Under the pieces are notes generated by a model. The model was given only the letters and a program-made list of their open reading frames with translations. It searched no databases and was not told the origin of the DNA. 33,690 nt of DNA from a virus, in the IMG/VR virus record IMGVR_UViG_3300027996_000105, positions 1 to 33,690 of that record; one strand, given 5' to 3'. Positions 8,643 to 32,444 of this stretch are shown in pieces. How positions within the stretch are numbered: position 1 is the stretch's first letter; every line of letters starts with the position of its first letter. The translations under genes and the position numbers were made by a program.

Positions 8643-10402
8643 ACGAATTCAAGCCTCCATCTAATAGTAAGTACTGTGTTAGCGGTTAAAGCGGCCCCTG
8701 GCGTTGGACCCCAATCACTTGTAGCTGATATACTTTCATTAAATACTTTCCTTGAAAAAAGTCTAAACTCCATATCATCACCTGTATCTACATCTTTATC
8801 AATTGATCTAGTAAAAGGAATCCCATTTGATAACATTTTTCTATAATCTAAGGAATAAAGTCCCATTGTCATTATACCACCAAAGGCGTTATTAGTTGCC
8901 ATATCACTTTTTTCTAACTTCATTTCAAACTCTACTAAACCCGCACTAGGGTCTGATGTTTGACATAATAAGAAAAAATCGGATTGGGTTTCCCCTAGCT
9001 CTTGATATCTTGCTCTACTATACCCAAATAAATCTGTACTTCTACTGACATTGGCCCCATTTTTAGTATATCCAATAGATTTTATTGGGTCACTAAAAGA
9101 GTCGTAACTTAAAGAGGATACTAAAGTATAGTTAGAGTTACCAGCCCCAGTAAACCCATGACCACCTAACCACCTACAATCAGACATCATAGCCGATGCA
9201 GCTAAGGTAGGATTAACACTCCAATTATTTAAATATTTATATATATTTTTAAATTTTCCATAAAAACCAGCAAAATTTAAGTTATGGTCTGCTTGTATAG
9301 TCCCATCAATAACAGAGGCATAGTCAGTAATCGACCCAGGCTCCAACCCGCTAAGTGTTGGGTTCTGTATTTTAGGTAAAGTTAGTATAGGATCATATCC
9401 GCTAGTGTTATTCCTAAGGGTTCCAGGGCCATTCAATAGAATTATTGAACTTACATTTGTACTGTCAATACCAGATAAGCATGGGATGGATGAAGCTAGT
9501 ACAGGGAATTCTTGAAAATCTTTAGTTGAATTAAACTCTGATTCACTTCCAAGGAAATAATTCAAAGGTACGCTACCTAAGTTTAGGGAAGGTCTTGCTA
9601 GGAGAACACCTCCTGATGGGGAAGTTGAAGTGTAAGTCCCAGAGTCCGTTGCCCCTCCTGGAAATATATAAGCTTCGGGAGATGTACCAGTAACAGTTAC
9701 CCCACTAGGGGAAACAATACCTAACCGATACCAACCTCCTCCTAAATCTTTAACTAAGGTGTTTCCTGATTTATAGGCACAGGTCCCTTCCCCGTTAGAG
9801 TCCCAGTAAAAGTCACCACTAGTAGTAGTACCATGCCTGTCTAGCCTAAGACTAGTTACCCCTCTACCTGACCCAGTACCAGCACTTATAGCCTCAGGAG
9901 GGTACTCATAATCGTATTTACAATCAATAGTAAATATCATTGGAGCATTAACCATCCCTGATAAATGAGCGTTAAATCCATCGAAGTTCAGATAAGAACT
10001 TGTAGTTACGCCTTGATGGGCATTTACCTTTAAAACATGGCTCGATAAATCAAACGGGCTATTTTCTTCATAAAGACTTGTGTTAATATTAAACTGATTC
10101 CAAGGTAAAGGGGCTGCCCCAATAGTACCAGCACTAACAATAAAATTATGTTTTTTATACTTATGAAGGTTTTGAAGATACCCACCAGTACCTTTACCCA
10201 CAGTAAACCCTTGTATGATATAATTTGAAGCATCAAGAACCCTTTCTTGGACCACCCCACTAACAATAGCTATCGCTGAGGGCATGGTAAGAAAGTCTAC
10301 AACGGATTCAGCAGCACCATCCATAATTAGATTGCTTTCAGATAAGATTAACTCTGATTTTCCATCAGAAGTATTTCTGTATATTTCGACTATGCCTTTC
10401 AT
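8639..10402 (-). CDS. Tail protein: adaptor domain split by a lectin-like insert
   Basis: The 587-residue protein starts like the 192- and 877-residue neighbours (EIYRNTSDGKSELILSESN, then FTVGKGTGGYLQN). Its last 100 residues match their second half (GIMTMGLYSLDY near residue 515, and a terminal TIRWRLEF). The roughly 350 residues between are an insert with a concanavalin/CBM-like stretch (about residues 145-285, including GDFYWDSNGEG and GGGWYRLGIV). The simplest reading is one adaptor domain whose two halves are separated in sequence by a surface module. It begins inside the stop codon of the giant tail protein I gene (TAATG) and its own stop overlaps the start of the next gene (ATGA). It is probably part of the baseplate-fibre interface. 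Confidence 0.72.
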   Translation of the reverse strand: MKGIVEIYRNTSDGKSELILSESNLIMDGAAESVVDFLTMPSAIAIVSGVVQERVLDASNYIIQGFTVGKGTGGYLQNLHKYKKHNFIVSAGTIGAAPLPWNQFNINTSLYEENSPFDLSSHVLKVNAHQGVTTSSYLNFDGFNAHLSGMVNAPMIFTIDCKYDYEYPPEAISAGTGSGRGVTSLRLDRHGTTTSGDFYWDSNGEGTCAYKSGNTLVKDLGGGWYRLGIVSPSGVTVTGTSPEAYIFPGGATDSGTYTSTSPSGGVLLARPSLNLGSVPLNYFLGSESEFNSTKDFQEFPVLASSIPCLSGIDSTNVSSIILLNGPGTLRNNTSGYDPILTLPKIQNPTLSGLEPGSITDYASVIDGTIQADHNLNFAGFYGKFKNIYKYLNNWSVNPTLAASAMMSDCRWLGGHGFTGAGNSNYTLVSSLSYDSFSDPIKSIGYTKNGANVSRSTDLFGYSRARYQELGETQSDFFLLCQTSDPSAGLVEFEMKLEKSDMATNNAFGGIMTMGLYSLDYRKMLSNGIPFTRSIDKDVDTGDDMEFRLFSRKVFNESISATSDWGPTPGAALTANTVLTIRWRLEFV

Positions 10403-16411: not shown

Positions 16412-16860
16412 ACTGTAAACTCCATTGGTAGTGTCTGGTTGTTTTCCTTATTCCTTACAGACATTCTAATTATTATTGTAGGTAAACTTGCTGAAGCAAA
16501 AGGGTCATCTACTTCTTCAGAAAAAACAACAATTTTTAATACTACGGCATTTGTAATATACCTTTTAAACTGTGTAAATAGCTTAGTTTTAATCTCGTCA
16601 ATCAGTTGGGGAGTTAATGGCTCAAATAAATATGAGTTTAAATTCAAACCAAAATTAGGAAGCATAACCCTCTCCCCAGGGGAAGTGTGAATTAGTTGCC
16701 TTATCTGTCCTACTAAGGATTCGTTATCTATAGATTTTGAAAAAAGTGTATTTCCTGATCCAAAGGGTACTTTTAGCCCTATGAATTTAGTACCCAGAAT
16801 ATCTTTTACAGTATTACGGGTAACTGAAGGGGCTAAAGTTCCATAGGTTGTAGTGGTCAT
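16408..16860 (-). CDS. Baseplate wedge protein, gp25/W family
   Basis: The 150-residue product has the conserved core of the gp25/W family: VGQIRQLIHTSPGERVMLPN, then FGLNLNSYLFEPL (about residues 50-82), followed by a helix and two or three C-terminal strands. Length and motif are as expected for T4 gp25, P2 gpW and the type VI secretion protein TssE. In contractile injection systems this protein sits in the wedge core and initiates sheath assembly. Start and stop overlap the neighbours by four bases (ATGA on both sides), so it is translated in step with the 915-residue gene and the gp6/J-like gene. Confidence 0.92.
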   Translation of the reverse strand: MTTTTYGTLAPSVTRNTVKDILGTKFIGLKVPFGSGNTLFSKSIDNESLVGQIRQLIHTSPGERVMLPNFGLNLNSYLFEPLTPQLIDEIKTKLFTQFKRYITNAVVLKIVVFSEEVDDPFASASLPTIIIRMSVRNKENNQTLPMEFTV

Positions 16861-19604
16861 TGAATCTTAATGTTTTGGAAAAATGCCTTATGGGCATTGT
16901 AGTTAGTGTTAATCTCACTTGTATCTAGTGGTTTGTCGTAAACTTTAAAACTTCCTACTCGGCCACCTAAGGCACTGCTGAACCCATGGGATCCTAGAAC
17001 AGAGGCTGATCCTCCAATGGAAGTACTACCCATAAACCCACCAGAGCTAGTAGAGTAAGTAATAGGGCTACCATCAGTCCATCCTCCACCAATAACCCAT
17101 GGAGTAAAGAAAGGGTCTAAGGTAGGTCCATTGTCTAGTACAGAGGTAGCACTTGTATTTAAATTGTCTTTTGAATACAAGAAACTAGGGTTATCACCTG
17201 TGCTGATAAAGGAAGGTATTCTGGGAGGTTCTTTATACTGTGTACCGAAAGTAGTACTCATAGGGGCTGTATCCAAAAGCTCGTTATTTAAATATATGCT
17301 AATAAGGTCATTTTGTACATCAAACGAAACATTCATATGTACATAAGTAGATGAAAGATCCCCAAAAGTGTAGCCTGAGGGGGTCTGCTTTGTATGAGGG
17401 ACAATCATACAATCAAAAGTTGTTAAAGTAGACTCACAAGAACCCGACCTGATAAACTCAACAGAATTATTACCACTTGAATCCTGTATGGATTGTGTAG
17501 GGGCTATAAAGAATGCGAAACTTGAAGTGGTACTGCTAGAATCCAGACCAGCGTAATTCAAGGCGATGTCTGTATCACTACCCCTAGTGGCAGTAGTCCC
17601 TTGAGTCTTCATTTGGGGGTCCCTAGTAAAGCCCATAACCATGCCCCTGACTGTATCACTATTACCGTTCCTAGGCATAATATCAGGATCTCCTGTATAG
17701 GACCCTCCTGTATTCTCATTAGCTAAGATAACCTTATAGTAATTATAATCAAGCCAAGCACCTTTTGAGTCTTCAGGTATTTGTGAGTTTCCTCCTGGGA
17801 TCGGATAGGTGCCATTCTCAAACCTATTATAATTTTGAGCGAACGCTTTAGGCATATGAAGCCAGAAATCAAAAGAACATCCCCTAAGGTTAAACATTAA
17901 GTCCTGCATTCTTTTGCTTGGAGGTAATCTAAGATAACTTCCAACATTGGTGGGTTTTAATAATGAACCAGAAGCAGCGAAAGATACTACCCCGTCCAGT
18001 AAGGGAATGCCTAGACCTTGAGAGAAAACCTCAGAAGTTGATCTTCCGACTAATTGCGCGTCTTGGGAAGAATCACTATTACAACTTATAACATTAGTTA
18101 ATACAGAGTTAGGGGGCTCAACCTTAGCGTTTAGAAAGCTATAAATAGCGACTAAGTGATCAGGGGCTACTGCGTCTGATATGGTTAACGCAGGCATGAC
18201 TGTGGAGCTTGCAGAGGGCAAATCAGCGAATGCGCCCGTACCTATGGGTGCTATTTGTAAAGGCGTTAGGGAGAAGGTGTGGGCCGTTGTAACTTGTTTT
18301 ACAAATATAGGCTTAACGGGTAAGATTATTCCGCTTACCTCCCCGTGGTCAATTACTAATTCCCTTTGTTTATCAAATCCAACTTCTAAATTTAAATTTG
18401 ATAAATAACTGAAATCGTTTACAGGGACTTTTCCAGGAAGGAAGGTCTTTTCGTATCCGAACAAATCATAAGCTTTAACGGCAACCTCAATTTGTTTCTT
18501 CCTTTTTCTAATCTTAATGTCAAAGGATTCTATTGTAGAGAAGATACCCTGTTGTATGTTATGAATAATAGCAGAGGTAGGATCATACCCAGAAGCAATT
18601 AAATTCTGCTTATCCCTTTCCATATCCGTTATAATTTTAGACTTATTACCTTGAAGGACTCCTAATGTATGATCCTCGCTGTAGTGTTCAAGCAAGTATT
18701 GCCCATCATCAATATTTTCTATATCAAAAATGGTTCCTACATAATCGTCAAGATCCCCCAAGCTAACCTGAGTACCTTTTCCTCCTAAATTTGGGGAATG
18801 ATCAAGCTTCCACTTGTTTGTGTCTGGTACGAAGCTTAAGTTGCTAATATCATCCAAGGTGGGGATTTCTGACCCATCTGAATACACCCTATTTTGTGAA
18901 TCATAATAAAGACCGTCAACCGATAATAGGAAAGACCCACTCTTACTTTCAGGAGGACCAAAAGTTAGCCTGAATATCTCTTCCTCTTCCTCTTGGTCAG
19001 CATCAGGATCAAAAGCTTCACCATTCTGTCTAGCAATTATGACAGAACCAATCATTTCTAATAAAGCTACTGACTTTTCTATAAAGTCTGCGCTTTGAGT
19101 CATGATTGTTTCTTGCTCAAATAGAAGGGCTGCCGTCTGCTCATTCGAAACAGGATCGGTAGTTATGCTATCCTCCATCTGACCCAGGAAAGACTGTAAA
19201 CAAGCTATAATATCATTAATCTGGTCTATAGTGGCGTTTAGTTGTGCTTGGGCTTCCTGAATAAACCCAATGCCTGCCCCTACAGCACCCAAAAGACCAT
19301 CCATAAAGGAACCTAGGCCACCTAAACCCGAATCTAACCCCCACTCATAGACCCCATCTCCGTCCTTATCGTACAGGCCAATTAAACCAAAAATAAAGTC
19401 CTTGGACGCAGCGATAGCGGTTTGGGCTGCCATTATGCCTTTGTTAATTCCAGCCGTTAGGGCAGCAAGGGCATCCCCAGGCAACATGTTTAGAATGTCC
19501 ATCCCTAAATCAAAAATACAAGGAGGTAGACCAAAAGTTGGAAGGGTTCCTGTCCCAAGAGGGACTCCAACTAACCATTCGGTACTTAAGGGATTAATAG
19601 GCAT
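16857..19604 (-). CDS. Lectin-like (LamG/concanavalin fold) virion protein between spike and wedge genes
   Basis: The protein has 915 residues. Residues 1-140 are glycine-rich and hydrophobic helices, interrupted near residues 75-88 by DKDGDGVYEWGLD, which looks like a calcium-binding DxDxDG loop. A strongly acidic run (DADQEEEEEIF) lies near residue 200. Residues about 515-915 resemble a LamG/concanavalin A-like domain: GCSFDFWLHMPKA, VHMNVSFDVQNDLISIYLNN, WVIGGGW, and GRVGSFKVYDKPLDTSEIN close to the C-terminus. This domain class usually binds sugars or serves as structural decoration. The gene lies between the spike and the gp25-like gene, a place that is empty in P2 (V-W). It is therefore probably a baseplate-associated protein. 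Its start shares a base with the spike's stop, and its end overlaps the gp25-like start by ATGA. Confidence 0.7.
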   Translation of the reverse strand: MPINPLSTEWLVGVPLGTGTLPTFGLPPCIFDLGMDILNMLPGDALAALTAGINKGIMAAQTAIAASKDFIFGLIGLYDKDGDGVYEWGLDSGLGGLGSFMDGLLGAVGAGIGFIQEAQAQLNATIDQINDIIACLQSFLGQMEDSITTDPVSNEQTAALLFEQETIMTQSADFIEKSVALLEMIGSVIIARQNGEAFDPDADQEEEEEIFRLTFGPPESKSGSFLLSVDGLYYDSQNRVYSDGSEIPTLDDISNLSFVPDTNKWKLDHSPNLGGKGTQVSLGDLDDYVGTIFDIENIDDGQYLLEHYSEDHTLGVLQGNKSKIITDMERDKQNLIASGYDPTSAIIHNIQQGIFSTIESFDIKIRKRKKQIEVAVKAYDLFGYEKTFLPGKVPVNDFSYLSNLNLEVGFDKQRELVIDHGEVSGIILPVKPIFVKQVTTAHTFSLTPLQIAPIGTGAFADLPSASSTVMPALTISDAVAPDHLVAIYSFLNAKVEPPNSVLTNVISCNSDSSQDAQLVGRSTSEVFSQGLGIPLLDGVVSFAASGSLLKPTNVGSYLRLPPSKRMQDLMFNLRGCSFDFWLHMPKAFAQNYNRFENGTYPIPGGNSQIPEDSKGAWLDYNYYKVILANENTGGSYTGDPDIMPRNGNSDTVRGMVMGFTRDPQMKTQGTTATRGSDTDIALNYAGLDSSSTTSSFAFFIAPTQSIQDSSGNNSVEFIRSGSCESTLTTFDCMIVPHTKQTPSGYTFGDLSSTYVHMNVSFDVQNDLISIYLNNELLDTAPMSTTFGTQYKEPPRIPSFISTGDNPSFLYSKDNLNTSATSVLDNGPTLDPFFTPWVIGGGWTDGSPITYSTSSGGFMGSTSIGGSASVLGSHGFSSALGGRVGSFKVYDKPLDTSEINTNYNAHKAFFQNIKIQ

Positions 19605-20668
19605 TATATTGAGTTAGAGTTTAGTGTAGGGATGAAAGCAATTCCAGCAGGAATAAGAGGCTGTAAGTTGACCTGACCAAGAGGCGCAGATATATTAATA
19701 TCCCCTGTCTGTGTAAATATATCTATACCTTTCGAGGCCCATATGGTGATTTTCCCACTGACTGGGTTAGTTCCTACAGTTGCTACAAGGTCATTAGCTA
19801 CAATCTCAATCGTACCACCTGTTTTTAGTTGAACTACTCCATCTCTGTGGAGGGGCTGAGTTCTTACAAATACTCTTGGAGGTGTAAGTGGCTTATAAGC
19901 AAAAGCATTTATATTAATACTATTATGCCAACTATCTATATTAACATTACCCTTCTTTTTATTCAGAGGAGATTCTAGAATAGAGCCATCACCATCCCTA
20001 GTAGCAAAATTTACTATCTGTATCACTCCTCCATTACCAGAATTACTTAGCTTCATGTCTCCTACAGTTGTGTGAAAATTCATGTTACCATAGGATTTTG
20101 CGGTAAAAGAACAGGGGCCAGAGCCCCCAGCATTCCCAGAATTATTCATCTTTAACATTACTCTAGGGGAAGTGTCACTAGTTTCTATAAGTATACCTTC
20201 ACGATCAGTATTTCTAGTTAACTTTATTTTATTAGAACCAGCATAAAGCTGGGCATAACTTCGCCTAGTTACCCCAGGGCTTCCACCTTCACTGCTCTCG
20301 TAAACAAACTCTAAACCGCTATTATGGTGATCCTTCAAGCCAACGGTATCCTTATATGAATTTCCTGTTAGAAATTGATCAGACCCTTTTGGGTAATTAG
20401 GTATAGCCTCCTCTTGGGTTTCTAACGACCCTACTATAGTTGACATATAGAAAAACTCCACATCACTGCCGTCATCGGCAGTGGCAACAAGTATAACATC
20501 CCCCTGACGAGGGTAGGCAGTAAACCCGCCCTCTCCAGGAAATATCGAATTGAAAGGGGAGGTATAACATACCTGAATAGGTATTAACCCCTTTAATAAC
20601 TCTGCGGGTATTTTTATATTGTTAGCAGGATTAAAAGTGCTGGTAACTCTTGCTTTTAATAATTCCAT
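19604..20668 (-). CDS. Baseplate central spike protein, gp5/gpV-like
   Basis: The 354-residue protein starts with an OB-fold-like region (residues about 1-80) containing GEGGFTAYPRQGDVILVATA, the sequence pattern of gp5/gpV/VgrG-type spike N-terminal domains (a 'P..GD.VlV' strand followed by a change to 'y..tivG'). The rest has repeated short strands with Gly, Asn and Asp turns and ends with a regular stretch (KGIDIFTQTGDINISAPLG), as expected for a trimeric beta-helix spike. No lysozyme domain such as that in T4 gp5 is present, and no HxH iron-binding tip motif is visible. It probably sits on the hub and pierces the outer membrane or surface layer on contraction. It directly follows the hub candidate (3-base gap). 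Confidence 0.8.
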   Translation of the reverse strand: MELLKARVTSTFNPANNIKIPAELLKGLIPIQVCYTSPFNSIFPGEGGFTAYPRQGDVILVATADDGSDVEFFYMSTIVGSLETQEEAIPNYPKGSDQFLTGNSYKDTVGLKDHHNSGLEFVYESSEGGSPGVTRRSYAQLYAGSNKIKLTRNTDREGILIETSDTSPRVMLKMNNSGNAGGSGPCSFTAKSYGNMNFHTTVGDMKLSNSGNGGVIQIVNFATRDGDGSILESPLNKKKGNVNIDSWHNSININAFAYKPLTPPRVFVRTQPLHRDGVVQLKTGGTIEIVANDLVATVGTNPVSGKITIWASKGIDIFTQTGDINISAPLGQVNLQPLIPAGIAFIPTLNSNSI

Positions 20669-20671
20669 TAG

Positions 20672-23227
20672 TTATTTATCCTCTGTATTTATTGATTTTA
20701 CGGCTTCAGTTGCTAATTGCTGCCTTTGAATAGTAAACTTTGAGTAACAGTCCCCATTTGATATAACATGCTCATAGCCAGATATCATGTATACACCACT
20801 TAAAAACCCTTTTGGAGCTATACCCCTAGTAAGAGCGAAAAAATTAGTATTATTTAGAAATATACAAGGTTTACCTAGTATTATAGGATCAACTAAATTA
20901 AAAAAAGGAATAGTTTTTAAACTTGCCATAGCTACCGTATTGGATAAGCTTTGAATATAGTTAAGGTGGGCCGTCATTCCAGCATAAGATATTTCCCTAT
21001 CAGTTACTTGGTGAGAGCTTTTTATAATTTCTTTAGTTTTCAATTTTATAGCTTCATAAAAAGCTCTTACATCCTTATCAATATTATTATTCTCTGATAA
21101 CTCCCCTAATGTAAGTAATATTGTGTGTGTTGCCGCATTATTCTTATATGCTTTTTCTAACATATAATCTATATTTTTATCAAACTCTTCATCTGAAAAA
21201 GAGACAGGTTTAGATTTCTCAAAAAGAATATCATTAAGGGAAGAGAGGCTGGTTTTTTTAATTATACTAAACGACTCTAATAAGTTAGCAAAGCCAGTTC
21301 CTTTTTCTGTACTCACAACCTCAATGACATTAGAGTTCTTGTTGTTAGCAATAAATGTCGGTACTGATTCTAATGTTTTTAGTACAGACTGTTCTGTTGA
21401 ATAATCAAATGTCGTTTTTTCTATAGAATTAATATCATAAAGTTTAGCAACATTGTCGATATATTCTCTTATATTTTGTTTGAATAAAAATTTACTGGCA
21501 TTAGTATGCCAAGCCTGTGTGGTAGAGTTTTTAAAAGGAATCTGTAATTGACCAATATAAATTCTCATTATGTGTTCTGAATAACTTGGAGAAAAAGGAG
21601 CTATTAGTCCATTACCTATTATATAATCAGTATAAATTTTTATAGTTTTTTTACCAAGAGTACTCTTCCTCATTGTAAAATTAAAGACTTCCCACTCTGT
21701 TTGAAAATGTAGTTTTACCCCAGACCATGTTGACTGAGTTCTTGTTGTTTTGGATTCCTTTGTAGTATACCAATTCCTATAGAACCCGCTATGTGAGTTT
21801 TTAGGTGACGGACCCCCTCTTGTGTCTTTCTTCCCACAAAGCTGATCTAGGAAAAGAATCTTGTGTTGATCGTTAGTAATGATTAGGGGAGAAGTGTCTA
21901 CATTATCCAAAGGGTAACCCCCTTCGGATAGCCCAAAAAATCTATACATGTTTCTCATGGAATCCATTACAACATCTTCGTAATATCTACTTGTTTTCTT
22001 TCCTCCTACTTTAGGTTGTTTATGGGTAATTGTTAGAAAATAAGTGTTTTCTTTAGTTTTGGGGTTCGTCTCTTCTTTTCTTATGAGTATGTTAAATAAC
22101 TCTAAAATTTTGGATAAAGCATCAAGTCTATATATTTCTGGGGGGGTAGGGTCATAAAATCTCTTTCCTTTTTTTTCGACCGCTTCATCTATTTTTTGTC
22201 TAAATAAACTAGTTAATTTAGGTGATAAAAAAACAAATGGATACACATCATCAGGTCCATTCGTTACCAGGAACTTCTGGTAAAGGTTTTCTAATAAAGT
22301 TACTATTAAATCTTCCCCATAATGGGAAGCTTTAATAAGAAAGGAGGCTTCATTTGGGCCAGAAAGCATTGGATCATACATGCCTGGATTTGAGGGTTGG
22401 TTAATCTTTGTTTCCTCTAATACTAATAGGGGTGGACCTATTATATCCGAAGACTCAAATCCCAAAATATCTCTCCAATTAGAGGTAAAATAATTATCAA
22501 CCTCAAGCTTATTCATAGCACCTGAAGATTCAGCATTTTCCAACTTACTTTCAGCAGCAGTTATATCAATCACCATATTATTTGAAGAATCTTGTGTTAT
22601 AAAAAAAGAAGATAATACAAATTTCCTCCAAGTCGCAGACTTACCTGTACCATTACCGTATTTTAAATAGAATTCATGAGTTTCTGTGTTATCAAACTTA
22701 TCATCTATTTCCTTCATTATCTTCTTTGCTGTTCTATCCTTTGCTTCTTTTTTGAACGGCCAGGGACGATTCCCGTCTGAATCAGTTGGTCTAAAAAATT
22801 CATATACGACATCCGTGGCATTTTCATCCTTATTGGAAAGAACTTCGTTTAACTTTTCCTCGAATTGCCTTTTTCTTTTTTCTTCATCTGTCTCTTCTTC
22901 AGCAGCCTTATTATTTTTAGTACCCCCAACAACAGCCCTAACTTTCTCGAAATAAGTTCTGTATAAGCTAATGATACTTTGATCGAAAAGTCTAGGTACA
23001 AACACCATTTCTGGGTCTAAAAATTTTAAGAAAATAGTAGGAGTATCCGAAGTTTGCCCTTCCCCTGTGATCTTTTTCTCAGAAAAAGAAATAAGGTTGC
23101 CTTCCTGTAAAGTAAGAAGAACAGATTTGCTATCTTCTACATCCCCAATACCTTGGGCAACCAAACTGTCCGTGGTTAGTATTACATAAGGAGAACCTAC
23201 ATTTAAGTTATTATCAAATTTAGACAT
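20672..23227 (-). CDS. Probable baseplate hub protein (gp27/gpD-like position)
   Basis: This is an 851-residue protein without a clear named domain. Its place immediately before the spike gene and after the gp53-like gene is where the hub (T4 gp27, P2 gpD) is normally found. Features that fit are an early strand pattern (TPTIFLKFLDPE near residue 68) and a C-terminal beta segment, GVYMISGYEHVISNGDCYSK then FTIQRQ, similar to the last strands of hub proteins. It is about twice the size of gp27. A highly charged insert (EEETDEEKRKRQFEEKLNEV, about residues 110-130) and long Lys/Glu/Asn-rich helices explain part of the excess. The assignment is inferred from position plus weak sequence resemblance, not from a clear family motif. 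Confidence 0.55.
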   Translation of the reverse strand: MSKFDNNLNVGSPYVILTTDSLVAQGIGDVEDSKSVLLTLQEGNLISFSEKKITGEGQTSDTPTIFLKFLDPEMVFVPRLFDQSIISLYRTYFEKVRAVVGGTKNNKAAEEETDEEKRKRQFEEKLNEVLSNKDENATDVVYEFFRPTDSDGNRPWPFKKEAKDRTAKKIMKEIDDKFDNTETHEFYLKYGNGTGKSATWRKFVLSSFFITQDSSNNMVIDITAAESKLENAESSGAMNKLEVDNYFTSNWRDILGFESSDIIGPPLLVLEETKINQPSNPGMYDPMLSGPNEASFLIKASHYGEDLIVTLLENLYQKFLVTNGPDDVYPFVFLSPKLTSLFRQKIDEAVEKKGKRFYDPTPPEIYRLDALSKILELFNILIRKEETNPKTKENTYFLTITHKQPKVGGKKTSRYYEDVVMDSMRNMYRFFGLSEGGYPLDNVDTSPLIITNDQHKILFLDQLCGKKDTRGGPSPKNSHSGFYRNWYTTKESKTTRTQSTWSGVKLHFQTEWEVFNFTMRKSTLGKKTIKIYTDYIIGNGLIAPFSPSYSEHIMRIYIGQLQIPFKNSTTQAWHTNASKFLFKQNIREYIDNVAKLYDINSIEKTTFDYSTEQSVLKTLESVPTFIANNKNSNVIEVVSTEKGTGFANLLESFSIIKKTSLSSLNDILFEKSKPVSFSDEEFDKNIDYMLEKAYKNNAATHTILLTLGELSENNNIDKDVRAFYEAIKLKTKEIIKSSHQVTDREISYAGMTAHLNYIQSLSNTVAMASLKTIPFFNLVDPIILGKPCIFLNNTNFFALTRGIAPKGFLSGVYMISGYEHVISNGDCYSKFTIQRQQLATEAVKSINTEDK

Positions 23228-24447: not shown

Positions 24448-26787
24448 CTAAATATTTCCTGTGGCAAAAGGGTTTACCTGAGTGCCTATTAACGCTGCGG
24501 TTGTTTCCTTTACTGCGGATACAATATCTTTCCCTTTAAAGGCATCCCCTTGCTCTAAAAGTTTAGTAAGTACTTTATTTAGCATTTCTTGTTTGGTTTC
24601 TTCCATACGCCTTAGTTTATAATCTACATCTGCTAAAGCGGCTTCTGTCCAGATGTCTGGGCCTGTCAAAGGGGTTTCCCTCTCCAGCATATCTTTTTCC
24701 CTAGCCCTAGCCTCCCCAGCATCAAGGGCTAAACTATCTGAAGCCATGCCATTTATGGATTCTAATAGTTTATTCATACTATTAAAAGTGGAATTCTTGT
24801 CCGAATCAGCATCACCAAACCACCGACCAAGCCCAGGGATCATAGAAAGTACATCGTAAATACCTTCAACAACACCAGCTACTCCTTGAATAACGAAGCC
24901 TATTGCTCCAGCTACAACCCCAACTATATCCATTACAGCCGCAATTGCTGGTCCGAAGGCCCTAACAATAAGATTCATTATGCTTCCCACTAAAAGAGAT
25001 AATCCTCCTATAAGTAATTGAAAAGGTTTAAGTAACCCAACAGCAATATTTTTCAAAGGATCCATAACAATCTCTTTAAAAACGGATAAGGTATTCTTGA
25101 GAGCGTCCCACATTGCTATGGCTGGTTTTTGGGCGTTTTCTAGTTTTTCTCCTACAATTCTTAAATTCGTAAGAAACTTATCAGTTCCTCCAAAGGTAGC
25201 AGATAAGGCTCGTCTACTAGTGTTAGCGGCAGCACCCTGAAGTCTTGATGCTACTTTTGATCCTTCTATAATTCCTTGAATAGCCTCTTGTGTACCTATG
25301 TTTCCCATAGCCAATTGATCCCCAAGACCCTCAACCCCAAGAATAGCTTGCATATTAAGATTTGCGTTAGCACTAGTAAGCTCCTTCATCAAGCTGCCTA
25401 CTAATTGAGAGTTCTCTTGCCCAAGCCTTGCTGTTAGGTCTGCTGTAACTCCAGTAGCAGTGTCAAGCCCCCCCATAACGGAAAGCAATTGGAAGTTTTC
25501 TGACAACTGACCAACAGCCTTAACCATAGAGTCAGTTGTTGTTCCATATTTTAGAGAATTATCAACTATATTTTTAGAAAGACCATCCATCACATCTTCC
25601 TGATGGCTTCCCGTTGCTATGATATCTTGACCTAGCTTAACAACCGCACCAAAATCTTGCCCACTAATTTTGGTCCTAGTTGCTAAATTGATTAAGTTTG
25701 CGTTGGTTTTATCAAATCCAGCGACCCTAAGTTCTGCTAAGGCTTTAACAGCTAACCCGAATCCTACGGTATTCTTTTCTAGAGACTCAGTGTTCCCTTT
25801 AAGCTCGGTATGTAAATTAGTGTTAACTACTGAGAGCCTTTCACTAATATCATTCATTTCGTGGAGGGTTTCAGTTAGTTTTTCAATTGCCATTTTAGCA
25901 AGTTTTAAGCCTGCTTCCATAGCCAAAGCAGGACCCCCACCTAGGGCTGTTAAACTTGCTCCAACACTATCCTTAAGCTTCCCAAAGAAACCCCCCCCCT
26001 CAAAATCAAAGCTCCCCTGCCCAGGGTGATCGGGAGGGTCCCCTGTACCTCCAGCACCTCCAGCACCTCCCTCTGAGATTCCATTGAAACCCATAGAGGT
26101 GCTTGCCCAATCCCCCCCGCCGCTTAATCGGGAGGTGAGGGATCCAATTAGGCGTGATAACAAGCCTTGTTGGGGGGTTGCTTGGACTGGTTCTGGGCGA
26201 TCTAGCGGTGCGGCATGGCCCGTGGATGCATCGCTGAACAGGGCCTGCCTAGTGCGACCTCCTGCTAAGGCTTCATTTAAAGCCGTAGATGGCATAGATG
26301 GTATAGGAAGACCGTATAACGAGGCACCCTCACCTAATCCAGTACCTACTGCTAAGGCTTCATTTAAAGCCGTAGATGGCATAGATGGCATAGATGGCAT
26401 AGGAGGGCCTATAAATCCCTCATCTATATTGTCTACAGGTGAAGCGGGAGGAGTAGTGTTAGAAAGTAAATTCGTAAGTTTGGTCAGGGCCTCGGTATTC
26501 GTTTTAATAACAGTTTCTAGTTCAGCATTAGCTGCGAAGAGAGTATCGTGTAATTTTGTTAACTCTTGGAGGGACTCTGTGATGGATACGAAAGGATCAA
26601 CCATTGTAGTATCCCCGTTACTCTCTTTCTTAAAGCTATTTAGAACTGTTTTAACAACACCCTCAGTACCACTCAGTTTCTTGACAGAATTATCAATAGA
26701 TTCTACGGAGGTTTTTAAGGATAGTAAGGTCTGGGAGACATTTGTCATCCCTTCGATTAATGTCTGTGTTATTCCATTATTATCCAT
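24448..26787 (-). CDS. Tail tape measure protein
   Basis: The 779-residue protein has a coiled-coil-like N-terminus (residues 1-105), a Pro/Gly/Ser-rich repetitive linker (about 115-265), a long helical middle, and a strongly hydrophobic block at about residues 575-655 (GLLKPFQLLIGGLSLLVGSI, then AIAAVMDIVGVVAGAIGFVI). This arrangement is characteristic of tape measure proteins, which set tail length and may insert into the host membrane at DNA entry. Using the usual 0.15 nm per residue, the full length would suggest a tail of about 115 nm; the linker may not count. The ribosome binding site is strong (GGGAGG a few bases before ATG). The linker carries internal DNA repeats, an unusually GC-rich stretch (about 26100-26290) and a run of nine G at 25991-25999 on this strand. 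Confidence 0.88.
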   Translation of the reverse strand: MDNNGITQTLIEGMTNVSQTLLSLKTSVESIDNSVKKLSGTEGVVKTVLNSFKKESNGDTTMVDPFVSITESLQELTKLHDTLFAANAELETVIKTNTEALTKLTNLLSNTTPPASPVDNIDEGFIGPPMPSMPSMPSTALNEALAVGTGLGEGASLYGLPIPSMPSTALNEALAGGRTRQALFSDASTGHAAPLDRPEPVQATPQQGLLSRLIGSLTSRLSGGGDWASTSMGFNGISEGGAGGAGGTGDPPDHPGQGSFDFEGGGFFGKLKDSVGASLTALGGGPALAMEAGLKLAKMAIEKLTETLHEMNDISERLSVVNTNLHTELKGNTESLEKNTVGFGLAVKALAELRVAGFDKTNANLINLATRTKISGQDFGAVVKLGQDIIATGSHQEDVMDGLSKNIVDNSLKYGTTTDSMVKAVGQLSENFQLLSVMGGLDTATGVTADLTARLGQENSQLVGSLMKELTSANANLNMQAILGVEGLGDQLAMGNIGTQEAIQGIIEGSKVASRLQGAAANTSRRALSATFGGTDKFLTNLRIVGEKLENAQKPAIAMWDALKNTLSVFKEIVMDPLKNIAVGLLKPFQLLIGGLSLLVGSIMNLIVRAFGPAIAAVMDIVGVVAGAIGFVIQGVAGVVEGIYDVLSMIPGLGRWFGDADSDKNSTFNSMNKLLESINGMASDSLALDAGEARAREKDMLERETPLTGPDIWTEAALADVDYKLRRMEETKQEMLNKVLTKLLEQGDAFKGKDIVSAVKETTAALIGTQVNPFATGNI
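26262..26388 (-). repeat. Direct repeat in the tape measure linker
   Basis: A 40-base unit occurs at 26262-26301 and 26349-26388, 87 bases (29 codons) apart, with no mismatch seen. Both copies encode PSMPSTALNEALA. The second copy is followed by further 9-base units (CCATCTATG on the minus strand) giving MPS-MPS. The sequence between the copies encodes ASLYGLP. Confidence 0.85.
26304..26327 (-). repeat. 24-base exact repeat, copy in the tape measure gene
   Basis: This 24-base segment is identical to 3693-3716 in the beta-helix fibre gene and is read in the same frame (ASLYGLP in both). Confidence 0.85.
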
Positions 26788-27299: not shown

Positions 27300-27572
27300 A
27301 TGAATACAGAGAATTATGAAATAATAGAGTTTATAGACTTACTTGATTACACCTTTAGTGATAAGTTTGTTGAAAAGTGGCGATATAAGTACTCTATCGC
27401 CTTTATTAAGAAGTTTCAGTTTAGAATACTTAAAGGTATTAGTGAAAAAAAGGTAATAAAGAAAAAAAGTCTTTATCAGTACCTAAGTAAGAAGTGTAAA
27501 TATAACAGTGAACAAATAGATAGTTTCTTTTTAGATATAGAGGTAGATATCTACTATCCATTGGTGATGTAA
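27300..27572 (+). CDS. Small lysine-rich hypothetical protein, first gene of island 1
   Basis: The 90-residue product is rich in Lys, Tyr, Phe and Ile and predicted to be mostly helical; no family is recognised. The stop codon overlaps the next start (TAATG), so it is co-translated with the Fe-S nuclease and then the primase; a role in replication or recombination is inferred only from this linkage. The ATG at 27300 has no Shine-Dalgarno sequence (TTTAATTA precedes it). A leaderless or near-leaderless start from the TATAAATA box is possible. Confidence 0.6.
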   Translation: MNTENYEIIEFIDLLDYTFSDKFVEKWRYKYSIAFIKKFQFRILKGISEKKVIKKKSLYQYLSKKCKYNSEQIDSFFLDIEVDIYYPLVM

Positions 27573-28348
27573 TGGAATGTAACACAATAAGCAACTCAAA
27601 AAGGGAATCCTTTAACAAATGTAGACTTAAGTATAAGTTTAATTATGTGAACAGATTTGAAGAAACAGACCCAGGGAATACTGGAGCCTTACATTTTGGC
27701 TCTTTTATACACGAAATCCTTGAAAAAGGGGTTGGGGCTATTAAAGTAGATCAGCTTTGGTCTATAGCCAATGATATAAAAGACAAGTACACCTTCCCAG
27801 AATCCTACAACAAGAAGATTGAGGTGTGTCTTAAGAACTTTCTTAGGTTCAATGCCCAGCTACCCAAGGACTCTCTTGTTGAGCATCATTTCAGGGAACA
27901 GCTTACCCCAGATGTTCTCCATGAAGGGTATATTGACCGTATCATAAAATCACCCAATGGGTCTGTGATCGTCATTGATTACAAAACTAGCAAGAGGGAG
28001 AAGAATAAGTTCCAACTCTTTAGTGATACCCAGGGCAAGTCGTATGTGTATGCCGTTCATAAGTTAACCAACACCCCTATTCGGAAGATTTCCTTTGCCC
28101 ATTATTACCCGTTAACTAATAATTTAGTTTCCGTCACATATACTGAGCAGGCTATCCTCCAGCATGTAAAAGACATTATCGGTGATGTAAAAAAGATACG
28201 CGAATGTACCGAGGATGATCTTTATCCCTCAAAAAACGAATTTTGTGACTGGTGTAGTTACAAAAGCATCTGTTCTCTCTATAATGACCCCACGACAGTA
28301 GCCAGTAGGCTAAACGAGTGTAAGGTAAAACCAAAGAGAAAACGATGA
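27572..28348 (+). CDS. PD-(D/E)XK nuclease with Fe-S cluster cysteines (Cas4/RecB-type)
   Basis: The 258-residue protein carries the RecB/Cas4 nuclease motifs in order: His47 in FGSFIHEIL, Asp122 in EGYIDRI, Asp136 and Lys138 in VIDYKTS, and Gln154/Tyr158 in DTQGKSYVY. Four cysteines are placed as in the Fe-S nucleases (Cas4, AddB): Cys17 near the N-terminus (FNKCRLKY) and Cys225, Cys228, Cys234 near the C-terminus (FCDWCSYKSIC). A single-strand-dependent exonuclease or end-processing enzyme acting in phage recombination, replication or host DNA turnover is the likely role. No CRISPR array or cas1 is present, so this is a phage-type Cas4-like protein rather than a CRISPR component. It is coupled to the 90-residue gene (TAATG) and to the primase (ATGA). 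Confidence 0.88.
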   Translation: MECNTISNSKRESFNKCRLKYKFNYVNRFEETDPGNTGALHFGSFIHEILEKGVGAIKVDQLWSIANDIKDKYTFPESYNKKIEVCLKNFLRFNAQLPKDSLVEHHFREQLTPDVLHEGYIDRIIKSPNGSVIVIDYKTSKREKNKFQLFSDTQGKSYVYAVHKLTNTPIRKISFAHYYPLTNNLVSVTYTEQAILQHVKDIIGDVKKIRECTEDDLYPSKNEFCDWCSYKSICSLYNDPTTVASRLNECKVKPKRKR

Positions 28349-29277
28349 TTAGAGAGTGGGTTCAGGAAAACATTAAAAGTGGAAGATTACAAAGCGGTGG
28401 CCGTGAGTATGTAATCCCTTCTCTCTTTTATGAAGATGATTGGAAGATGCATATGTCTATCAATCTTGAAACTGGACTTTGGAGATGTTTCAAGTCGGGT
28501 GAGACTGGGAACTTTTATAAGCTAGTCTCCCTTGTTCGTGGAGTACCTTACCAGAGAGGTAAGGAAGTGTTCTATAGCTTCTGTATTGAGAATGGTAAAC
28601 TTCCTGAGGAAAGTGAAGCAAAGATAATAATCCCTGAGTCCAAGAGTATTACTCACTCTGAGTTTGTTGAAGTTGAAGAAGGTTCTTCTGCTTGGAACTA
28701 CCTCCAATCTAGGTCACTGAATCCCACTAGGTTTTATGAGTGTAACTCAGGTAAGTTCAAAGGGAGGGTTATTATCCCCTTTGAAGACAGGGATGGTTTA
28801 TTCTATTTTACTGCTCGCTCCCTTAGCCCTGATACCTTTCCTAAGTATTTAAACCCAGCATCTGAAGAGGGGGTGAAGGCTTCCCATGTACTCTATCCCT
28901 ACGCGCACTCTGAGGAGCCCCTATATGTCGCTGAGGGCGCGTTTGACGCTATCGCCATCAAGGAGGCGGGTATGAACGCAACATGTACAAATGGATGCTC
29001 TCCGTCCATTATACAGATGCAGTACCTTAAAGCCTACCCTGGGGAAATTGTGATCGCTTATGATAATGATGAGGCAGGAAGGGAAGGTTTAGAAAGGTTT
29101 GAACGATTACGAAAAAGGTTGTGTATAGATAATATTTCCTATGTGTTTCCTGAAGGGGAAAAGGATTGGAATTCCATCCTTATAAATAAAGGAGAGTCTG
29201 CCTTGCGACAAACTCTCCAAAATTATAAAAAATATAGTTGGGAAAATAATATGGATGTTATCGTCAGCGCACTGTGA
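28345..29277 (+). CDS. DnaG-type DNA primase with degenerate zinc finger
   Basis: The 310-residue protein has a TOPRIM catalytic core: Glu197 in LYVAEGAFDAIAI, and Asp240/Asp242 in IVIAYDNDEAGREG. The DnaG N-lobe motif is also present (GRVIIPFEDRDG, then ARSL and KYLNP, residues about 140-171). It would lay down RNA primers for lagging-strand synthesis. The N-terminal 65 residues correspond to the CHC2 zinc-binding region by layout (IPSLFYEDDW, SINLETGLWRCFKSGETGNF), but the usual CPFH and CxxC ligands are reduced to Cys48. It is shorter than bacterial DnaG and lacks a helicase-binding domain. It overlaps the nuclease gene by ATGA, and its 3' end overlaps the convergent 302-residue virion gene by 14 bases. 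Confidence 0.85.
   Translation: MIREWVQENIKSGRLQSGGREYVIPSLFYEDDWKMHMSINLETGLWRCFKSGETGNFYKLVSLVRGVPYQRGKEVFYSFCIENGKLPEESEAKIIIPESKSITHSEFVEVEEGSSAWNYLQSRSLNPTRFYECNSGKFKGRVIIPFEDRDGLFYFTARSLSPDTFPKYLNPASEEGVKASHVLYPYAHSEEPLYVAEGAFDAIAIKEAGMNATCTNGCSPSIIQMQYLKAYPGEIVIAYDNDEAGREGLERFERLRKRLCIDNISYVFPEGEKDWNSILINKGESALRQTLQNYKKYSWENNMDVIVSAL
29181..29218 (-). terminator. Minus-strand hairpin terminator inside the primase gene
   Basis: On the minus strand GGAGAGT (29218-29212) pairs with ACTCTCC (29197-29191), a 7-bp stem with a 14-base loop, followed by a T-rich tail (TTTATTTATA, 29190-29181). It begins 46 bases after the stop of the minus-strand gene 29264-30172. The tail is broken by A, so strength is uncertain. 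Confidence 0.5.
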
Positions 29278-30172
29278 AGTACATTAACGGTGAGATAATA
29301 GTCTCACTCATTAGAGTATATTTTACCTCTAAAGAATAAGTTCCTGTACCTGCCCCAAGATTGGGGATACTTCCATCAGTTAAGACAGCAGTATCTAAGG
29401 AGTAAACCATAGTGCTATCTCCTGTAATGTTAATGAAGGCTGAAGTATCAGCATAGCTTTTAACTTCAACCCTAGAAGGTAGGTTAGAATCTTCATTGTG
29501 CTTAAGGATTCTAAACTTAGAGTTTTGAATTACTCCTTCTGCTAAGGTATTCTTTACAGTCTGATCAATATTCTTGTTCATTACTGTAACCTCAGTAGCA
29601 ACTTTGAGCCCTATAACCTCTCCTAGTCTTATCTTGTTAGGTATAAGGCTAGTTCTTGATTTTAGTAAAAGTGGCTCTGTGATAGCTACGAAAGAATCAG
29701 GGAAAAGCTTCACTTCATTTATGAATACGGTCCAATCAGTATTTTCAGATACTTTTACGGTCCACACATCAATGTATTCCCCGATGGAACTAGCTTGGTT
29801 TAAGATAGTCGTTCCAGACCGATCAAGGCTACTGACGCTTTGGGTTCCATCAAGAACTACTGCGTATTCTCCAGTACCCACCTTGTAAATGGAAGAAGCA
29901 CTACTAGCATCTGTATTGAAGGTGCTTGTATCCTTTACGCCAGTCCACCTGAATTTAACAGTACTTGCAGCAGTATCAGAAATTAACTGAGTACCAGATG
30001 CTAGTATAGTCTGAGGGGACACATTTTGAGATTTTAGGAAAAAACTTACGGAGCTAACCGCATATAAATCCTGGTAAACCCCGTTATTGATAATATTAAG
30101 TCGTAATATGTCCCTAGAAAGGGTTCCTGGCCTATTGTGTCTTTCAACGACTGTTACTCCGTTTAGCAGCAT
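29264..30172 (-). CDS. Unidentified beta-rich virion protein
   Basis: The 302-residue protein is rich in Ser, Thr, Val and Asn and reads as a succession of beta strands. It has no hydrophobic segment and no enzyme motif. I do not recognise the family. The ribosome binding site (AGAGGAAAG, about 9 bases before ATG) lies inside the frameshift extension of the chaperone gene upstream, whose stop is 29 bases inside this gene, so the two are linked on one message. Placement after a tail chaperone and before the tail genes suggests a tail, neck or sheath-end component; the sequence does not decide. Its 3' end overlaps the primase gene by 14 bases in the opposite direction. Confidence 0.68.
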   Translation of the reverse strand: MLLNGVTVVERHNRPGTLSRDILRLNIINNGVYQDLYAVSSVSFFLKSQNVSPQTILASGTQLISDTAASTVKFRWTGVKDTSTFNTDASSASSIYKVGTGEYAVVLDGTQSVSSLDRSGTTILNQASSIGEYIDVWTVKVSENTDWTVFINEVKLFPDSFVAITEPLLLKSRTSLIPNKIRLGEVIGLKVATEVTVMNKNIDQTVKNTLAEGVIQNSKFRILKHNEDSNLPSRVEVKSYADTSAFINITGDSTMVYSLDTAVLTDGSIPNLGAGTGTYSLEVKYTLMSETIISPLMYFTVR

Positions 30173-30341
30173 TTATACTTTCCTCTTGGGATATAACTTC
30201 CTCTTTAAAGAAGCCTAAGAAGTGGTTTCGTTCAGATCGGTTCATATTCTTAACATCAGAATACGAAAATCTACACCTTCTAACAAGTATATAGGCTTCC
30301 CTAAGAAGATTTTCCAAATTGTTTTGGACTAGCTCACTGAG
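30144..30341 (-). CDS. -1-frame extension of the gp26-like chaperone (probable frameshift product)
   Basis: The -1 frame relative to the gp26-like gene is open from upstream of its stop (in-frame stop upstream at 30380-30378) down to TGA at 30146-30144. Read from the slip site it adds 65 residues (LSELVQNNLENLL, REAYILVRRCRFSYSDV, then MNRSERNHFLGFF), giving a long form of about 299 residues with the normal form being 237. The pattern 'Y...d...M...eR..fl' is what follows the CxxC region in the C-terminal part of longer T4-type gp26 proteins and small gp51-like proteins. There is no plausible independent start: TTG at 30317 and ATG at 30245 both lack a Shine-Dalgarno. It is too short to be picked up by simple gene finding. 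Confidence 0.7.
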   Translation of the reverse strand, partial: LSELVQNNLENLLREAYILVRRCRFSYSDVKNMNRSERNHFLGFFKEEVISQEESINAAKRSNSR

Positions 30342-31042
30342 AAAAAATTTTTGTCTAACGGAAGCTCCATTTTGGAGTCATGCCCACACGCACTACATCT
30401 CGCCATAACCTCAGTGCTTATACCAAATCCTTCACACATGATTTCCGAAATCATGGTATTAACATCCCCTGCGGGGAGCTTGGATAGGACCTTTTGAATA
30501 ATCATAGGATCATCGTACTCATCAAACTTTAAGATAAATCTCCAAAGATTATCTAACATTTTGCTAGTATCTGAAATAACTTTCTCATCCGACACAGAGG
30601 CTCGCCTTAGTAGAACTTTCTTTTTACACATCGGAAGATCTATTTCTACTTTTTCTGAGCCCCCTTCTAGGGGCGCAACAGGCATCTCGTTAATGTCTAT
30701 GCTAATTGTTTGCTGTTCCTTACAAGAAGGGCACGACATATGGAATTTATAAACAGAACCGAAAGATAACTCTCTTAATTTAAATAGTAGATAAATCTTA
30801 TCAATTAGTAGGATTTTGTTTAGATCTAAGCCCGTCACGCACTTTTCGATTAAAAGGGTTGAGGGGTCTTCTCCTTTATTGGAAAGAGCAACCATTTGCC
30901 TCTCTTCTTCAAAAGTAATAGGCTTAATTTTAGCTATTCCTCCTGAGGGTAGTTCTATTTCTGTTTCCGTGTTTGTAGGTAGGTCTGATAAAAGACCCTC
31001 TACAATAGAGTCTACATCAATTTTTTCTTCATTTATAGCCAT
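30329..31042 (-). CDS. gp26-like tail/baseplate assembly chaperone with two CxxC pairs
   Basis: The 237-residue protein resembles the T4 gp26 / T4-type baseplate protein family: an N-terminal ELPSGGIAKIKPITFEEE, a helical middle with DKIYLLFKLRELSFGSVYKF, and a zinc-ribbon-like arrangement of CPSC (Cys104, Cys107) and CSAC (Cys216, Cys219). Members are hub assembly or tail chaperone proteins. It is the first gene of a minus-strand unit starting at the divergent junction with the helicase gene; GGAG lies about 11 bases before ATG. The last codons contain a double slippery sequence (see frameshift site), so a longer version ending in the -1 frame is expected. Confidence 0.78.
   Translation of the reverse strand: MAINEEKIDVDSIVEGLLSDLPTNTETEIELPSGGIAKIKPITFEEERQMVALSNKGEDPSTLLIEKCVTGLDLNKILLIDKIYLLFKLRELSFGSVYKFHMSCPSCKEQQTISIDINEMPVAPLEGGSEKVEIDLPMCKKKVLLRRASVSDEKVISDTSKMLDNLWRFILKFDEYDDPMIIQKVLSKLPAGDVNTMISEIMCEGFGISTEVMARCSACGHDSKMELPLDKNFFSVS
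30341..30352 (-). promoter_or_regulatory. Probable programmed -1 frameshift site (tandem slippery heptamers)
   Basis: On the minus strand the last codons before the stop read AAA AAT TTT TTC. This contains two X XXY YYZ heptamers in frame, A AAT TTT (30350-30344) and T TTT TTC (30347-30341). The zero-frame stop TAG follows at 30331-30329. Twelve bases downstream a small hairpin, TCCAAA-ACAA-TTTGGA (30328-30313), could add a stimulus, though it is weak. Confidence 0.7.
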
Positions 31043-31082: not shown

Positions 31083-32444
31083 ATGAAAATTGTTGTAAGT
31101 AACAAAAAATCTAAACTTATTACAGATAACCCAGAGATACTAAAAGTATTGGGTAACTTATATAGTTTTAAAGTTCCAGGAGCAGAGTATACACCTTCCT
31201 ATAGGCGAAGGCAGTGGGATGGAAAGAAGAGATTCTTTTCTAATACTGGGTCTTTTGGGACTGGGATGCTTGAATCTGTTCTAGCAGATCTAAAGAAAAT
31301 AGAGTGTACTCCCGACATTGAGTATAAGTATGAGTCCTCTGAAGAAGTAAACCGTAAGACCATAGATAACTTTACATACTTCGACTACCAAGAAGAAGCT
31401 ATAGACTATGGGCTAAAAGCTAAGAGATGTATTATCCAGGCTCCGACTGGTGCTGGTAAGACTCTTATTATGGCGGGTCTAGTAAAATCGTTAGCTCCTA
31501 AGAAAATTGTTATACTTTTTAACGCTAAGGGTTTACTAAAACAGACTTATGATTTCTTTACTAAGGAGTGTGGTTTAGAGGATGTTGGTGTTTGTTTTGG
31601 AGAAGGGTATCAAGATGGAAATATAATGTTATGTACTGTTCAAAGTATAGGACGCATCCTTGATAACTATGTTGCTGACGCTGATGTCATCATGGTAGAT
31701 GAAGTACATGAGTTCGCAAACGGTGACACTACCGTAGCAGCCATTGAGAGCTTCCCTGAGGCAAAGTACAGGTATGGGTTTACTGCTACAGTTCCTACTG
31801 AGAATATCCCTAAATGGACCCTTATAGCAGCCTTCGGCCCTATATACACCTGTAAACAGACCTCCGACTTAATTGAGGAAGGAGTTCTTACGAAACCGAT
31901 CATACAAATGGTCCCTGTACCAGAATCCGAGGTAGCCGAAGATCTTGGATATAGGGATACTTACGAAACTCTTATTGTTCACAATAAAGAAAGAAATGAC
32001 CTTATTAAAGGCATAGTTGACCAAATAAAAGAAAGCCATGGAAAAGCAAGAATACTTATTCTCGTCAGAGATCTTGAACACGGTAGAATCCTTCAAGAAT
32101 CACTTAAAGGAGACACTTTCTATTTGCGAGGAGAGGATGATATCAGCAGTAGGTATGCCACAATACGAAGCTTTACGAATTGTGAAGGAAACTCAATACT
32201 TATTGGAACTAAAATTCTCCAAACAGGAGTTAACATCAAAGAGATCACACATTTCATCAATGCTAGAGGACTTAAAAGCCCAATTGCTACTATCCAAGCA
32301 CTTGGCAGGGCCTTACGCAAACACGATAGTAAAGAGGTCGTATATGTCTATGATTTCATGGATAACGGAAAGTATCTCGCAGCACACGCTAGAAAAAGAC
32401 TAAACACTTATAAAAAAGAAGGACATGAGGTAATAGAATTATGA
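31083..32444 (+). CDS. uvsW: UvsW-like superfamily 2 helicase
   Basis: The 453-residue protein shows SF2 motifs: APTGAGKT (residues 120-127, motif I), VDEVHE (motif II, 205-210), GFTAT (232-236, motif III) and QALGRALRKHDSKEVVYVYD (motif VI, about 405-425). The N-terminal 60 residues (NLYSFKVPG, then YRRRQWDGKKRFF) match the double-stranded-DNA-binding N-terminus of T4 UvsW (FSFEADG, NWDGRIRL). UvsW resolves branched intermediates, unwinds R-loops and helps switch from origin-dependent to recombination-dependent replication. The match begins at the first Met, so the ATG at 31083 is real even though no Shine-Dalgarno precedes it (TATAATAAAGT), suggesting a leaderless or unusually initiated message. 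Its end overlaps the 74-residue gene (ATGA). Confidence 0.9.
   Translation: MKIVVSNKKSKLITDNPEILKVLGNLYSFKVPGAEYTPSYRRRQWDGKKRFFSNTGSFGTGMLESVLADLKKIECTPDIEYKYESSEEVNRKTIDNFTYFDYQEEAIDYGLKAKRCIIQAPTGAGKTLIMAGLVKSLAPKKIVILFNAKGLLKQTYDFFTKECGLEDVGVCFGEGYQDGNIMLCTVQSIGRILDNYVADADVIMVDEVHEFANGDTTVAAIESFPEAKYRYGFTATVPTENIPKWTLIAAFGPIYTCKQTSDLIEEGVLTKPIIQMVPVPESEVAEDLGYRDTYETLIVHNKERNDLIKGIVDQIKESHGKARILILVRDLEHGRILQESLKGDTFYLRGEDDISSRYATIRSFTNCEGNSILIGTKILQTGVNIKEITHFINARGLKSPIATIQALGRALRKHDSKEVVYVYDFMDNGKYLAAHARKRLNTYKKEGHEVIEL

Follow-up and report, generated by a model that had tools for sequence, protein, structure and literature searches.

We describe here a locus that very probably (we put it at about 92%) encodes a tail assembly chaperone pair of the lambda G/GT type, made by -1 frameshifting, in an uncultured phage with T4-type contractile tail genes. 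It lies on the minus strand of a 33,690-nucleotide stretch of viral DNA, IMG/VR record IMGVR_UViG_3300027996_000105, to which we refer as the window. The first part of the locus, the short form (TAC-N), is a gp26-like zinc-ribbon protein of 237 amino acids that runs from an ATG start codon to a TAG stop codon (31042-30329, stop at 30331-30329), and the last codons of its gene read GAC AAA AAT TTT TTC TCA GTG AGC TAG. The -1 frame is open from 30377 to a stop at 30146-30144, and within it lies the gp51-like extension (TAC-C; 30144..30341, minus strand), 65 codons reading LSELVQ...SNSR followed by TGA. Beyond the stop codon of the short form this frame holds only two start-like codons, a TTG at +14 and an ATG at +86, neither of which is preceded in the window by a Shine-Dalgarno-like sequence, and initiation at the ATG would yield just 33 residues of the extension. 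Residues 1-234 of the short form joined to the 65 residues of the extension give a predicted long form of 299 amino acids. An earlier note on this DNA, made from its letters alone, had given sizes of 237 and about 299 residues and a -1 frame open for 65 codons with no usable start, and both descriptions were correct. Stop-codon readthrough was considered and rejected: it stays in frame 0 and reaches the next stop after 28 residues that are not the conserved extension.

Both parts of the locus can be placed in T4 protein families. The short form matches Pfam family PF12322 (T4_baseplate) with an E-value of 8.4e-19 and 68.6 bits, against a curated cut-off of 24.5, which confirms the gp26-like identity first suggested for it, and it matches phrog_150 (baseplate hub) with an E-value of 2.3e-20. 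Compared directly with the PHROG families, the extension has just a weak match, to phrog_634 of gp51 (E 0.18, residues 4-62 of 65). Searched against a small set of targets, a cyanophage-extension HMM recovers T4 gp51 (E 6e-6) as well as the extension of the window (E 1.1e-5), and hhalign gives 89%. The extension aligns with cyanophage gp51 and with the C-terminus of T4 gp51, a 33-residue segment of which pairs in the HMM alignment with LREAYILVRRCRFSYSDVKNMNRSERNHFLGFF of the window. Together with a predicted fold that resembles P-HM1 gp51, these results bear out the proposal that the -1 peptide is a gp51-like C-terminal part.

The end of the short-form gene had been noted to hold two canonical slippery heptamers. 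Both are present, in phase with the pattern X_XXY_YYZ that marks programmed -1 frameshift sites, and they overlap: T_TTT_TTC (30341..30347, minus strand), the proposed shift site, encodes Phe-Phe at residues 233-234, and A_AAT_TTT spans 30344..30350 on the same strand. A heptamer and an open frame are weak evidence alone, because in-phase T_TTT_TTY occurs 7 times in the ORFs of the window against 7.1 expected from codon shuffles, and because long open -1 frames also run past the stop codons of several other window genes, where they are explained by overlap with the next gene. The frameshift reading is settled by five relatives, in all of which the gp26 part, the -1 extension and T_TTT_TTY are retained. 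These uncultured relatives, each on a separate contig, were found through the neighbouring UvsW-like helicase; the window gp26 protein used as a query had found no matches among viral contigs, distant homologues varied too much for their profile to serve as a query, and megablast of most of the window against the phage collection returned no nucleotide match. Their gp26 parts are 34-78% identical to that of the window and their extensions 47-86% identical, with the extension in the -1 frame every time, and in all five the site, T_TTT_TTC or T_TTT_TTT, stands three codons ahead of the stop. Comparison of gp26 homologues had been set as a check beforehand, and on this point every relative (5/5) retains both the slippery site and the open -1 frame. 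The Phe-Phe pair is invariant in 18 aligned proteins. A_AAT_TTT is found in the window and in relatives L015, L017 and L021 and is missing from L016 and L018; of the two heptamers only T_TTT_TTC is therefore conserved, and A_AAT_TTT is probably not a functional site. RNA folding of the window and its relatives revealed no conserved hairpin in the 69 nucleotides downstream of the site; the window has a hairpin 12 nucleotides past the site, which its closest relative, L015, lacks, and z-scores are weak. Programmed -1 frameshifting does not always need a stimulatory RNA element.

Purifying selection acts on the extension from the stop codon onwards, the part before the internal ATG included. Between the window and L015 pN is 0.07 and pS 0.53, across four closer pairs pN ranges from 0.07 to 0.21 against a pS of 0.47-0.68, and in the part upstream of the internal ATG pN is 0.06 against a pS of 0.47. 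The last of these values bears directly on the possibility that the extension is a separate small gene with its own ribosome binding site, which is how cyanophage gp51 has been annotated. Cyanophage records, for example that of S-RIM50, start gp51 at an internal ATG, and in the relatives of the window an ATG matches the one at +86 in position, exactly or nearly so. However, this codon specifies a conserved methionine inside the extension domain, the stretch upstream of it is constrained, and neither it nor the TTG has a Shine-Dalgarno-like sequence in the window. Moreover, the frame relation and the slippery site are constant, and in T4 gp51 the extension domain is fused to a gp26-like part. 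We therefore regard separate initiation as very unlikely. The -1 frameshift by which the earlier note had joined the gp26-like and gp51-like parts is instead supported, at the level of sequence, by the five relatives, by T_TTT_TTY and by pN below pS.

The same arrangement, with T_TTT_TTC, is found in other phages, namely the cyanophages, which share about 20% identity with the window in the gp26 part and in which gp51 is annotated as a separate gene (as in S-RIM50), and Aeromonas phage Aeh1, in which the extension is unannotated. A cyanophage gp26 query recovered 80 viral contig loci, among which there are 60 distinct sequences with the stop codon covered. The gp26 gene ends NNT TTT TTC NNN stop in 60/60 of these, and in all 60 the -1 frame then encodes a gp51-like product, which in a few cases runs past the contig end. 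The codon before Phe-Phe, which codes for Ser, Ala, Asp or Asn, ends in T throughout the set; for 21 cluster representatives the probability of the pattern under their own codon usage is about 10^-18.7, a value that ignores shared ancestry and is a guide only. In Aeh1 the gp26 gene ends GAT TTT TTC GAC TGA, and the -1 extension occupies a gap before the next gene (L105:12836-13001). T_TTT_TTC is also present in Atu_ph07 and Cassandra, and T_TTT_TTT in XacN1. In a further uncultured phage, LR756511 (L003:3609-3881), the ATG of the -1 extension overlaps the stop codon (TAATGG), so this extension may be started separately.

The conserved feature of these sites also bears on the choice between ribosomal slippage and slippage of the polymerase. 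A homopolymer run does lie at the shift site, and transcriptional slippage on the T6 run could in principle cause the shift. For slippage by a polymerase, runs of 6-7 are short, and what is conserved is a phased heptamer in which the codon before Phe-Phe has to end in T, as tandem tRNA slippage requires, so that we hold a transcriptional origin to be highly improbable. There is next to no chance that a single continuous gene was split by a mistake of sequencing or assembly in the A5T6 run: homopolymer runs are error-prone and both parts form one protein in T4 gp51, but the same break occurs at the same place in five relatives on separate contigs, in 60 cyanophage-type genes and in the isolate genomes of Aeh1, S-RIM50, Atu_ph07 and Cassandra.

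Frameshifting at the locus would also explain two peculiarities of published genomes. Cyanophage gp51 was described as lacking about 200 N-terminal residues, and Aeh1 as lacking gp51 (Sullivan et al., 2010; PMC3037559). Both observations follow from a frameshift: the short cyanophage gp51 and the 'missing' gp51 of Aeh1 would be frameshift products that annotation has split or missed.

To place the two parts structurally, the short form and the extension were folded separately with AlphaFold2. The model of the short form is confident (pLDDT 83.5), and when it was compared with 991 solved chains the best match was YqbN of B. subtilis (3klu; Z 6.7, rmsd 4.4, 88 residues aligned), a relative of the PBSX-type chaperones. 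The second was the HK97 tail assembly chaperone (2ob9; Z 6.4, rmsd 2.9, 68 aligned), which resembles the predicted N-terminal fold of the short form. Only these two exceed Z 5 among the 991 chains, the third-best reaching 4.2. Since neither Z-score reaches 8, and below this value a resemblance may arise by chance, the match is support rather than proof that the short form has a tail assembly chaperone fold; to this extent the parallel with lambda G/GT drawn in the earlier note is strengthened. Foldseek against the PDB gave no significant match, and nor did a sequence search of solved structures; the two chaperone matches came from the alignment to the 991 chains. SP-15 and further gp26-type proteins are among the neighbours of the short form in viral models. 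The extension model is helical and confident (pLDDT 88); alone it had no clear match among solved structures, and its model neighbours, with weak E-values, include P-HM1 gp51 and several proteins annotated as tail assembly or tape measure chaperones. A 293-residue phage protein, A0A6J7X6V4, matches both the short form and the extension and may be a natural fusion of the two.

A model for expression of the locus can be drawn from these features and from the chaperones of other phages. In lambda, the tape measure protein is prepared by two chaperone forms, a short one in the majority and a long one in the minority (PMC5009743). The likeness to lambda G/GT and to P2 E/E+E' lies in a short form accompanied by a rarer long form, and in a -1 slip shortly before the first gene ends; the window locus is likewise predicted to give a short form and a longer form with a common N-terminus, joined by a frameshift, as in a G/GT-type pair. 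Family scans showed no sequence similarity to the lambda and P2 chaperones, and unlike them the gp26-type short form has zinc-ribbon elements in addition. According to the model, the majority of ribosomes would complete the 237-residue short form, while a minority would slip back by one base on T_TTT_TTC; that slippage takes place, and at what rate, we infer from the anatomy and conservation of the site. The peptidyl-tRNA-Phe and aminoacyl-tRNA-Phe would re-pair in the -1 frame by tandem slippage, allowing the ribosome to bypass the stop codon of the short form and to append the 65-residue helical gp51-like domain of the 299-residue long form. If the pair works as lambda G/GT does, the tape measure protein would be coated by short copies in large number and by a few long ones, whose extra domain would bring in tail tube subunits, and both forms would have left by the time the tail is complete. 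Genes that are routinely annotated as 'baseplate hub' or 'baseplate hub assembly catalyst' would then be likely to function in tail assembly as chaperones.

T4 itself was named in a review as an exception to G/GT frameshifting (PMC5009743). T4 gp26 and gp51 both match PF12322 over the entire model and are paralogues; gp51 is the longer of the two and carries the C-terminal domain, and it is required and is not in the final particle (PMC3004832). T4 gene 26 ends GAG TTC TTT GAG TTA CTA TAA, with no slippery site at its end and with the -1 frame closed, and of the 1339 phage records that match gp51, 1334 do so over 80% or more of its length at a single place. The T4-type enteric phages therefore have a short gene and a long gene, an arrangement that resembles the 'two-gene form' put forward for phage 0305phi8-36 (PMC2147016). 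As such a form T4 fits the rule to which it was held to be an exception, a point apparently made already by Vladimirov et al. (2022; Virology 566:9-15), to judge from the papers that cite it. The window differs from T4 in having one gene with a -1 site in place of two paralogous genes, and in belonging to an uncultured lineage.

The earlier note knew of no such device in the T4-type family, and this does not stand. As cited in PMC10885494 and PMC12846349, Vladimirov et al. (2022) identified the tail assembly chaperone genes of T4-like phages; the former paper credits them with a short gene and a longer fusion gene in some of these phages, and the latter with poly-T slippery sequences in T4-like TAC-N genes. 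On these accounts, the T4-like gp26/gp51 systems share with the window PF12322 and the gp51 C-terminal domain, the short and long forms and a poly-T signal. In another myovirus group, Pakpunavirus Adele and the Vandenendeviridae, a poly-T site that is conserved, together with a -1 frame that stays open, has also led to a -1 frameshift being inferred (PMC12846349), although there the site is given as GTTTTT and the viruses are of other families. Going by these citations, other phages, T4-type phages included, were already known to have the device, so that the window is a further case of it, from a diverged and uncultured lineage.

The point that is possibly newer concerns a different frame. In SP-15, LIS04, GXN1, Mel-JY01, LuckySocke, BRock and LR756508 the gp51-like extension at the end of the gp26-like gene lies in the +1 (or -2) frame. 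SP-15, LIS04 and GXN1 have in common NCC CGA TTY directly before the stop codon, a possible +1 site. At the position of the extension LIS04 has no annotated gene, and SP-15 has just a 39-residue fragment. We lean, if only slightly, towards the view that the gp26/gp51 family has switched its means of making two forms several times. The lineage of the window would use -1 slippage on T_TTT_TTY, as would the cyanophages, Aeh1 and a number of large phages; SP-15, LIS04, GXN1, Mel-JY01 and Streptomyces phages would use a shift of +1 (or -2); and in the T4-type enteric phages the gene would have been duplicated and the slip site lost. If so, frameshifting would be ancestral and the exception of T4 derived.

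The surroundings of the locus differ from those in some of the phages just mentioned. In LIS04 the gp26-like gene is annotated beside a tape measure gene, and in SP-15 and S-RIM50 a long gene follows the gp26-like gene in the equivalent place. In the window another gene and replication genes lie between the chaperone gene and the likely tape measure gene. The next gene downstream (29264..30172, minus strand, from the ORF list) starts within the 3' end of the extension and encodes 302 amino acids with no confident Pfam or PHROG match. A possible tape measure protein of 779 amino acids (24448..26787, minus strand) has no family match, and this weak assignment comes from composition: the protein is rich in Ala and Gly and has one strongly hydrophobic segment near residue 614. 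Several large minus-strand proteins of the tail region, of 354 to 1173 amino acids (1879-5400, 8639-10402 and 16857-23227), have no PHROG match. The chaperone gene adjoins that of the divergent UvsW-like helicase (31083..32444, plus strand; phrog_16 DNA helicase, E 1.1e-77), and plus-strand replication and recombination genes for a PD-(D/E)XK nuclease, a primase and this helicase (27300-29277 and 31083-32444) interleave with the minus-strand tail genes.
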